Assembly (NCBI GenBank): GCA_001793155.1
Contig: MGHI01000012.1
Coordinates: 1-36,459 of the forward strand
Direction of reading: 5' to 3'
From: Candidatus Woesebacteria bacterium RIFCSPLOWO2_01_FULL_39_61
GTDB taxonomy: Bacteria > Patescibacteriota > Microgenomatia > UBA8517
DNA length: 36,459 nucleotides
A program made the translations under genes and the position numbers. Shown piece after piece: positions 20,787 to 36,459 of the stretch (positions within the stretch are counted from its first letter, which is position 1; each line of letters begins with the position of its first letter). The notes beneath the pieces were generated by a model. That model had not been told where the DNA came from, did no database searches, and saw only the letters and a list, made by a program, of their open reading frames with translations.

Positions 20787-22129
20787 AGCTTCAAAAATAC
20801 AGTAAAAATCGATCTAACTTAAACAACGTTCCTCAGGATGCGGGTGTGTATATATTTTGGAATAAAGCAAGCGTTCCTATTTACGTCGGCAAAGCAAATA
20901 ACCTTAAAAAAAGACTTGAATCTTATTTTTCAAATAAAATTTTCGGAAAAACGCTGCAAATGATGACAGAGGCTACCGGTTTTTCAATAATTCGTGTTGA
21001 CTGTGAGATTGAGGCTTTGCTTTTGGAAGCCAAACTCGTTAATCAATTTCAGTCAAAGTTTAATAGTCAACTTAAGGACGATAAGCGCCCTCTCTACATT
21101 ATAATTACCCCAGACACTTACCCGCAGGTTCTGATCGCAAGAAAAAAGGATCGAAGCGATCGATCTTTATTCTACGGACCGTTTCCATCCTCAACATCCG
21201 TTAAGACAGTGTTGAAACTCATAAGAAGAATTTTCCCCTACTCCCAGCATAAAATCGGAAACAGAGCCTGTTTATATAGCCAGATAGGTCTTTGTAATCC
21301 CTGTCCGAACGAAATCGAAAAAATTAAGGATCGGCAGGAAAAAGACAGACTCCAAAAAAAATATAAAAGAAATATCAAAATGATAAAGACGTTTCTGTCG
21401 GGTGACCTTTATAAAGTTAAAAGAAGTCTGGAAAAAGAAATGAACGGATTGGCTAAAAACGAAGATTTTGAAGAAGCCAAAGCGGTCCGTGAAAAAATAA
21501 AATCTATCGAGTATATAACTCAACCAATTACCCCAATTAATTACTTTTTGGAAAACCCCAACTTTTTGGAAGATATTCGCAAAAAAGAAGAAGAGGAACT
21601 GACTAATATATTGAGAAAATTCTTTCAGATCACCTATAGTATATCCCGTATTGAGTGTTTTGATGTAGCCCATTTAGGAGGCACTAGCGTCACGGCATCA
21701 ATGGTCACTTTTATAAACGGCGAACCTGAAAAAAGCCTATATAGACATTTCAGGGTTCGTCAAAAAAAGAGCAGGGACGATATTTCATCGCTTTCGGAAA
21801 TTGCTCAAAGAAGATTGAAAAACAAAGAAACTTGGGGATTACCAAATCTTATAGTGGTCGACGGAGGGAAGGGTCAACTTAAAACTTTCCTAGAAGAATT
21901 TAAGAATATTGATCTGCCTATCGTGGGTCTGGCAAAACGCGAAGAAACTTTGGTTATGGCAACGCTCAAGGGTAACAAAATTAGTTTTCAAACGCTTAAA
22001 CTGGCAAGGGGTCCAGCTCGTAATCTTCTACAAAGAATCAGGAATGAAGCCCACAGGTTTGCAAGGCGATATCATTTTAACTTGGTCAAAAAAATGTTAA
22101 TTCCCCGAAGTTACAAGAAAAAGTTGTAA
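20783..22129 (+). CDS. uvrC: Excinuclease ABC subunit UvrC, short form
   Basis: N-terminal GIY-YIG (AGVYIFWNKASVPIYVGKANNLKKRLESYF), UVR region, RNase H-like half (IECFDVAHLGGTSVTASMVTF... LIVVDGGKGQLKTF). GTG start overlapping the upstream stop. Confidence 0.93.
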   Translation: MKLQKYSKNRSNLNNVPQDAGVYIFWNKASVPIYVGKANNLKKRLESYFSNKIFGKTLQMMTEATGFSIIRVDCEIEALLLEAKLVNQFQSKFNSQLKDDKRPLYIIITPDTYPQVLIARKKDRSDRSLFYGPFPSSTSVKTVLKLIRRIFPYSQHKIGNRACLYSQIGLCNPCPNEIEKIKDRQEKDRLQKKYKRNIKMIKTFLSGDLYKVKRSLEKEMNGLAKNEDFEEAKAVREKIKSIEYITQPITPINYFLENPNFLEDIRKKEEEELTNILRKFFQITYSISRIECFDVAHLGGTSVTASMVTFINGEPEKSLYRHFRVRQKKSRDDISSLSEIAQRRLKNKETWGLPNLIVVDGGKGQLKTFLEEFKNIDLPIVGLAKREETLVMATLKGNKISFQTLKLARGPARNLLQRIRNEAHRFARRYHFNLVKKMLIPRSYKKKL

Positions 22130-35702: not shown

Positions 35703-35792
35703 AAGGTCACCTTCAAAAAACCTTAAATATTTTTGATATTAGCTTTAGCGTGGCGACTCGCAGCGTTTTTGATAAAATAATTTATAGTTTAC

Positions 35793-35831
35793 GGTGGCTG
35801 TAGGAAAACAGTAGTTTTCGTAGCATCCACC
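35793..35831 (+). pseudogene. Degenerate tRNA-His-derived minihelix (copy 1)
   Basis: GGTGGCTGTAG (35793-35803) identical to the first 11 nt of the intact tRNA-His, then GAAAAC-AGTA-GTTTTC hairpin, ending in CCACC that can pair with GGTGG. Confidence 0.45.
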
Positions 35832-35843
35832 TTAACAAGTTAC

Positions 35844-35902
35844 AGTGGTTGTAGCTCAGTTGGTTAGACCTGCCTGCCGGCAGGCAGGGCGCGAGTTGTG
35901 GA
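35844..35902 (+). pseudogene. Partial tRNA-His 5' half (copy 2) interrupted by a palindrome
   Basis: AGTGGTTGTAGCTCAGTTGGTTAGA + 20-bp palindrome + GCGCGAGTTGTGGA; matches the intact gene at 36162 onwards apart from two substitutions and one deleted G, ends inside the anticodon loop. Confidence 0.8.
35869..35888. repeat. Perfect 20-bp palindrome CCTGCCTGCCGGCAGGCAGG
   Basis: The two 10-nt halves are exact reverse complements; interrupts the D-arm of the tRNA remnant. Confidence 0.85.
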
Positions 35903-36146
35903 ATATTTTGTCTACATAATTAAGAGCATGTCGAAAAATAAATTTTATACTGGTATTACTTCAAACATATTAAGAAGATTAAATGAACATAATAGTAGGT
36001 TATCTAACACAAGAACAACTAAATATATTAGAGATTTCGAATTGATTTTTGTTCAAATAGTTAAGAATAGATTGGAAGCAAGAAAATTGGAAAAATATTT
36101 TAAATCTGGTACGGGTAGAGAATTAAGAGCCGAAATAGTAAAATAG
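35898..36146 (+). CDS. GIY-YIG nuclease family protein (URI-like, 82 aa)
   Basis: MEYFVYIIKSMSKNKFYTGITSNILRRLNEHNS; GTG start coincides with the anticodon of the tRNA-His remnant. Confidence 0.88.
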   Translation: MEYFVYIIKSMSKNKFYTGITSNILRRLNEHNSRLSNTRTTKYIRDFELIFVQIVKNRLEARKLEKYFKSGTGRELRAEIVK

Positions 36147-36161
36147 TGTACAAAGTGATAA

Positions 36162-36236
36162 GGTGGCTGTAGCTCAGTTGGTTAGAGCGCGAGGTTGTGG
36201 ACCTTGAGGTCGGGGGTTCGAGACCCCTCAGCCACC
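36162..36236 (+). tRNA. tRNA-His (GTG anticodon)
   Basis: Cloverleaf: encoded G-1, acceptor GTGGCTG/CAGCCAC, D-arm GCTC..GAGC, anticodon arm CGAGG-TTGTGGA-CCTTG, T-arm GGGGG-TTCGAGA-CCCCT, C73; 3' CCA not encoded. Confidence 0.95.
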
Positions 36237-36459
36237 CAACATACATTAAAAATAAGCCAATTTTGTCATGTAAGGACTCCGACTAAAATTGCCTCTTAAA
36301 ACTCTCGGTTATTCAAAAATAAATGTAAGGAATTAAATTAGTAGTTAGAAGTTTAGACAAAGACTACGGGTATTCTTAACGAGTTGGCACAATGAATAGT
36401 GTGTTTTCTAGGTAAAATCGGGGATTTTTAAACATTTCAGGGTGGGAAAATCTGTAACA

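Follow-up and report, generated by a model that had tools for sequence, protein, structure and literature searches.

A small GIY-YIG endonuclease gene fused to a displaced tRNA-His fragment in a Woesebacteria genome, and related loci that point to a putative minimal mobile element of tRNA genes

Described nuclease genes in and beside tRNA and rRNA genes

The tRNA cluster of phage T4 encodes SegB, a free-standing GIY-YIG homing endonuclease that cuts within several tRNA genes; the inheritance or amplification of this region is driven by SegB (PMC13096335, PMC2988022). Mobile ORFs that bring replacement gene ends are described from fungal mitochondria, i.e. in atp6 of Allomyces and in atp6, atp9, cox2 and nad3 of Glomus, with a GIY-YIG nuclease in the Glomus atp9 case (PMC3630166). 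In the rRNA genes of CPR bacteria, GIY-YIG insertions unlike group I or II introns have been reported (PMC11270868); the report covers rRNA only, and tRNA is unmentioned in its text.

The locus described here was found at the end of a contig of Candidatus Woesebacteria bacterium RIFCSPLOWO2_01_FULL_39_61 (MGHI01000012.1). The stretch of DNA analysed (the window) is this whole contig (C12) of 36,459 bp, from a 1.08-Mb assembly of 46 contigs. The locus resembles SegB in that a GIY-YIG nuclease gene is found among tRNA genes, which provides a precedent for the target; SegB, however, lies between intact phage tRNA genes, whereas the ORF in the window is fused to a truncated tRNA. The elements proposed here further differ from SegB in their location on bacterial chromosomes, their many tRNA isotypes, their palindromes and replacement tRNAs, and their 82-aa protein, for which cleavage is inferred. 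The fungal mobile ORFs share with them an endonuclease ORF within a gene, a replacement part that is brought in and a native part displaced alongside, and thus give a precedent for the rescue of the target gene; they reside in mitochondrial protein genes and replace the 3' end, whereas the new elements are found at bacterial tRNA genes, replace either end or the whole tRNA, and carry palindromes in the displaced part. The insertions in CPR rRNA genes are similar in that they, too, place small GIY-YIG genes within structured RNA genes, and in the same bacterial group (compare the 23S rRNA locus below); the two may be related. With tRNA group I introns that encode homing endonucleases, the locus shares a nuclease gene inserted at the anticodon loop; there the tRNA is saved by splicing, whereas in the window it is preserved by a second copy.

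No description of the arrangement was found in the open-access literature searched (GIY-YIG with tRNA genes in Patescibacteria, CPR or Bacteroidetes, tmRNA, palindromic elements), and a description elsewhere could have been missed. The recurrence of the arrangement, as set out below, points to a widespread minimal mobile element that is apparently undescribed.

The tRNA-His locus and its GIY-YIG gene

Near the end of the contig, three tRNA-His-like stretches on the forward strand come after a glycosyltransferase-like ORF; their GGTGGCTGTAG-like starts are at positions 35793, 35844 and 36162. Only one of these stretches is a complete tRNA, a tRNA-His(GTG) predicted by ARAGORN at 36163-36237 (Rfam, 65 bits), or 36162-36237 when the extra 5' G of tRNA-His is included; no second tRNA-His turned up in a search of the genome. 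The locus is at the contig edge with 222 nt remaining after the intact tRNA, and its right side is therefore unseen.

The second stretch (copy 2, 35844-35902, forward strand) was identified by its identity to the intact gene as a displaced 5' part of tRNA-His, nucleotides 1 to approximately 38, where the anticodon loop ends on its 3' side. Over 35845-35868, 23 of 24 positions are identical to the first 24 nt of the intact tRNA-His, and the alignment score was equalled by none of 200 shuffles and is thus beyond chance. It is interrupted inside the D-arm by an exact 20-bp palindrome, CCTGCCTGCCGGCAGGCAGG (35869-35888), whose insertion neither removed nor duplicated tRNA bases; the tRNA sequence resumes behind it as GCGCGAGTTGTGGA, with one G missing, reaches the 3' edge of the anticodon loop and directly enters the GIY-YIG ORF (35898-36146, forward strand, 82 aa). 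The GTG start codon of this ORF at 35898 is the GTG anticodon of the displaced copy, and a short spacer (36147-36161) separates the ORF from the intact tRNA. This anatomy is read directly from the DNA. A sequence-only reading had already claimed the three repeated tRNA starts with only the last one complete, and a second copy that follows the intact gene through the anticodon loop and then becomes the GIY-YIG ORF; both claims held, but the palindrome, which is a main feature, had been missed. The likeness of the short upstream flanks (AGTTTAC, AGTTAC and AGTGATAA), also claimed there, is possibly due to chance.

The first stretch (copy 1, 35792-35831, forward strand) forms a direct repeat with the tRNA start and was annotated as a collapsed tRNA-His remnant, in which acceptor-like GGTGG/CCACC ends enclose an unrelated hairpin, GAAAACAGTAGTTTTC (RNA fold, -17.5 kcal/mol, z -4.45). 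Because of this hairpin with its acceptor-like closing ends, copy 1 is more than a 5' piece and has the look of a collapsed tRNA remnant. Copy 1 might be the trace of an older insertion round; this is an inference.

The ORF belongs to the GIY-YIG superfamily (PF01541, 60.5 bits against a curated cut-off of 22.6, 2e-16), with both motif tyrosines (Y6, Y17) and the arginine R27; these three residues, G19 and H31 are invariant among its relatives. The nearest solved structures to the profile are UPF0213 proteins and, weakly, SLX1. Within the window a second GIY-YIG domain is found at 20843-21064 inside a 450-codon open frame, which could be UvrC. Further small GIY-YIG genes in the same genome are located beside a tRNA-Ser, beside a tmRNA and inside a split tRNA-Glu (L003, L005 and L006, respectively), and a decayed copy with two internal stops (L008) lies between tRNA-Lys and tRNA-Glu.

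The only Rfam matches in the window were to tRNA, with none to group I or II intron RNA, and a group I or II intron was thus rejected. Between the fragment and the intact tRNA-His, the GIY-YIG ORF stands alone without an integrase ORF; a tyrosine-recombinase integrative element was ruled out by this absence (with the right side of the contig unseen) and by the displacement of the 5' part. A related explanation is that a larger integrative element at the tRNA, such as a tyrosine-recombinase island or a prophage, was deleted down to its GIY-YIG gene. Such elements classically attach at tRNA genes, and the mirror-type loci described below do contain displaced 3' ends; however, there is no integrase ORF between the copies, the displaced piece in the window is the 5' part, and the same ORF-only layout is repeated in dozens of loci, so that this explanation can be all but excluded.

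The reading that we consider likely is that of a minimal selfish element of the homing type, a free-standing GIY-YIG gene of approximately 250 bp that enters tRNA genes while a working tRNA is kept; its cleavage activity and its movement are inferred. The nuclease would cut an uninterrupted tRNA gene, and repair of the break, templated by a copy that already bears the element, would transfer the element; the displaced piece and the intact tRNA would provide the homology arms. Homing of this kind is an inference also. The insertion would displace part of the resident tRNA (in the window, the 5' part up to the anticodon loop) and leave the ORF flanked on its other side by a complete tRNA, whether the missing part is duplicated or a whole tRNA is brought along; the displaced piece would acquire a GC palindrome in one of its arms (D, anticodon or T). 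With a complete tRNA left beyond the ORF, the host would keep its tRNA and the nuclease gene would lie within the transcription unit of that tRNA; co-transcription is likewise inferred. A point against homing is that the intact tRNA should also be a target, and its protection is unexplained. The origin of the replacement part cannot be told for the window, because the acceptors of fragment and intact tRNA-His differ at a single base.

Related loci, displaced fragments and split tRNAs

Relatives of the ORF were drawn from the genomes of 56 relatives, a contig set of 84,980 species, viral contigs and 374 genomes of the class, and the surrounding DNA was read. A tRNA or tmRNA was found less than 150 nt from 109 of 158 sampled related GIY-YIG genes, and in all 109 cases on the same strand. 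The first sample contributed 61 of 105 genes (61/61 on the same strand; 27 before and 34 after the RNA gene) and the second, which comprised the best profile matches including two on viral contigs, 48 of 53 genes (all on the same strand; 34 before and 14 after). Both samples were ranked by likeness to the protein of the window, and the fractions therefore hold for this subfamily and not for GIY-YIG genes overall. As a rough control, 29 glycosyltransferase loci of the same genomes were inspected, none of which contained a tRNA. The layout of the window recurs at tRNA genes for Asp, Ile, Leu, Asn, Phe, Lys, Arg, Gly, Gln, Val and Glu; furthermore, the ORF is found downstream of tmRNA in six loci and inside 23S rRNA in one (L113), and a search for other structured RNAs near tRNA-free GIY-YIG genes yielded one 23S rRNA case in 20 loci. 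The arrangement is also present in two single-contig genomes (G046, G022) and in a cultured Bacteroidota isolate, Reichenbachiella agariperforans (L043), and is thus not an artefact of fragmented assemblies; related loci occur in other phyla and on viral contigs. This recurrence is shown.

In a tree of the proteins, 47 of 177 genes had no tRNA in range, most of these in other clades, whereas all 24 rows of the window's own subtree adjoin a tRNA. The occurrence of the ORF without a tRNA had been named beforehand as grounds for refutation, which are partly met by these 47 genes. The tree rests on few columns and contains many unresolved forks; layout, tRNA isotype and palindrome were each clustered on it (0 of 200 shuffles as low).

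Members of the GIY-YIG family were detected in 309 of the 374 genomes, and most of their ORFs are open. Such a distribution, together with the distant similarity to the structure-specific nuclease SLX1, might suggest a protein that serves the host by acting on tRNA or on tRNA-gene DNA, e.g. in the repair of transcription-associated breaks, with the fragments as by-products. However, the genes are patchy at any given tRNA, range from 0 to 15 copies per genome and adjoin different tRNAs across genomes; the decayed copy in the window's own genome and the displaced tRNA halves also speak against a host function, which we regard as very unlikely.

The loci fall into two mirror layouts. In the first, that of the window, the ORF comes before the tRNA, and a tRNA fragment that usually begins at nucleotide 1 was recognised upstream of the ORF in 26 of 33 loci (≤2 of 200 shuffles); in several isotypes, the fusion with the start of the ORF lies close to the anticodon loop. 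In the second, the ORF comes after the tRNA, and a 3' fragment was recognised downstream in 19 of 49 loci (≤2 of 200 shuffles); the re-reading of 3' fragments comprised 19 loci and a different threshold. An endonuclease ORF between the displaced part and a complete host gene is thus present in the window and in most relatives of its layout. The proposal made from sequence alone, a minimal tRNA-targeting element with the GIY-YIG nuclease as its agent that displaces the 5' part and leaves the intact gene downstream, is supported by these comparative data, with cleavage and mobility inferred; its restriction to the 5' end failed, since the mirror arrangement with a displaced 3' part is equally common.

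Split tRNAs are shown for six loci (L006, L232, L236, L238, L244, L246), in which the upstream fragment and the intact tRNA differ in their acceptor strands. Behind the intact tRNA lies a 3' half whose acceptor pairs with that of the upstream fragment at 7 of 7 positions (one G-U pair in L232; halves of L006, L238 and L244 paired by eye). The simplest reading is that the resident tRNA was broken by the arrival of the ORF together with a whole tRNA, and the six loci thus meet the description of a foreign replacement with the native part displaced. The anticodon of the carried tRNA is that of the displaced tRNA where it is readable (CAG in L238, TAG in L246), and in L244 the displaced halves overlap by approximately 34 nt, resembling a target duplication. 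No such 3' half was found in loci with identical acceptors in fragment and intact tRNA (a 6/7 match in L097 resembles the neighbouring tRNA-Ser), and it is missing also in some loci with differing acceptors (L039, L229, L266). The earlier claim that the 5' part is duplicated therefore held in part, as some loci received a whole tRNA.

An empty site is shown for one locus: genome G280, of the same genus as G026, has the syntenic tRNA-Leu(CAA) with both flanks matching and without ORF or fragment. This evidence is limited to a single comparison (L012 against G280) and does not concern the locus of the window, for which a search through the glycosyltransferase neighbour gave distant paralogues only, with no tRNA nearby; a search of the G054 genus with L118 gave repeats and partial contigs only. 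A relative that lacks the gene and still bears the fragment would have counted against the element; at the one orthologous locus where this was looked for, G280 has neither, and the idea is not refuted.

These loci also bear on a passive explanation, in which a tRNA is locally duplicated in tandem, one copy decays and gathers palindromes, and the GIY-YIG gene lands there without being the cause. In its favour, a few loci (L138, L118, L011) show a duplication of the upstream flank together with the tRNA, which local duplication explains equally well, and the palindromes are repeats dispersed through the genomes, for the most part not near tRNAs. Against it stand the shared strand in 109 of 109 cases, the fusion of the ORF start near the anticodon loop in several isotypes, the split tRNAs that surround a foreign tRNA, the clustering of target isotypes on the protein tree, and the joint absence of fragment and ORF in G280; we consider passive duplication unlikely.

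If the homing-type element is real, one of the smallest known mobile genes attacks essential tRNA genes, and the host survives thanks to a working tRNA that is either left behind or supplied. The element would then account for many small GIY-YIG genes of unknown role near tRNAs, be a source of tRNA-gene turnover and of pseudo-tRNAs in ultra-small bacteria, extend the idea of gene-end-replacing endonucleases from fungal mitochondria to bacterial RNA genes, and raise a testable question on the palindromes at its scars.

Several further loci were noted. In L252 (G337:C2:1-6000), at least 12 identical tandem copies with a period of 357 bp, each of a GIY-YIG gene, a tRNA-Ser-like 5' piece and hairpins, follow a tRNA-Val at the contig end, and the start of the same array is found in a genome of the same genus (L253, G371:C1); amplification and assembly artefact are both possible, and the choice is undecided. 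A tRNA-Ser-associated group of GIY-YIG genes from different genomes (L003, L014, L249, L250, L263, L268) has AT-rich hairpins, AACGTAATAAATTG...CAATTTAAACGTTGC, between tRNA and ORF. On an IMG/VR contig (L181, 1182-1416), a group I intron (RF00028, 86 bits) interrupts a tRNA gene, tRNA-Asn-like by eye, that lies behind a palindrome-marked GIY-YIG element, so that one tRNA hosts two kinds of selfish element.

Palindromes in the displaced fragments

Short palindromes scattered through genomes are known as REP and as Rickettsia palindromic elements; unlike these, the palindromes described here recur beside one clade of nucleases, where they occupy arms of the displaced tRNA pieces. CCTGCCTGCCGGCAGGCAGG occurs once in the genome of the window, and is a dispersed repeat in 136 of the 374 genomes of the class, with up to 60 copies each, most of them distant from tRNA and ORF; a reversed control sequence was absent from the 374 genomes. 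It occupies the same position in related elements. Of 61 loci with the ORF before the tRNA, 28 have a palindrome of its type directly upstream of the ORF, compared with 0 of 69 loci of the mirror layout. Two or more copies were found in 14 of the 19 genomes with the strongest ORF matches, against 70 of the 355 others.

More generally, a GC palindrome tends to interrupt the displaced fragment in both layouts. Stem scores of at least 12 were reached by 38 of 53 5' fragments, and by none of the control segments taken upstream (0 of 51) or of the shuffled ones (0 of 53); the signal was weaker for 3' fragments, of which 10 of 19 scored at least 11 (controls, 1 of 19). In the clade of the window the palindrome is located in the D-arm and the ORF starts after the anticodon loop, and in another clade the anticodon arm is replaced by GTCGCC..GGCGAC and the ORF starts near the T-loop. 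The palindrome as a fixed end of the element was rejected, because the tRNA resumes past it and the clades differ in palindromes and arms. Translation control by a hairpin, as near T4 homing endonuclease genes (PMC2988022), is unlikely as its sole role, since displaced 3' pieces downstream of the ORF also bear such hairpins. Removal of the cut site, prevention of folding between the dead half and the live 3' half, and formation by the nuclease acting on stem-loops are each possible; any role of the palindrome is an inference.

A bolder reading, which we regard as improbable, is that the 82-aa protein drives a stem-loop system on the hairpin arms of tRNA, tmRNA and rRNA genes, in which it would insert its own gene and swap or break the displaced stem-loops with GC palindromes. 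If this were true, parasitic genes of bacteria would have a general strategy of entering essential RNA genes in a self-insured way.

Some palindromes located away from 5'-type elements (L062, L074, L077) sit, as judged by eye, in apparent tRNA pieces, i.e. in the D-arm of the 5' part of a tRNA-Leu (L077) and in T-arm pieces (L062, L074); these palindromes might be scars of lost elements.
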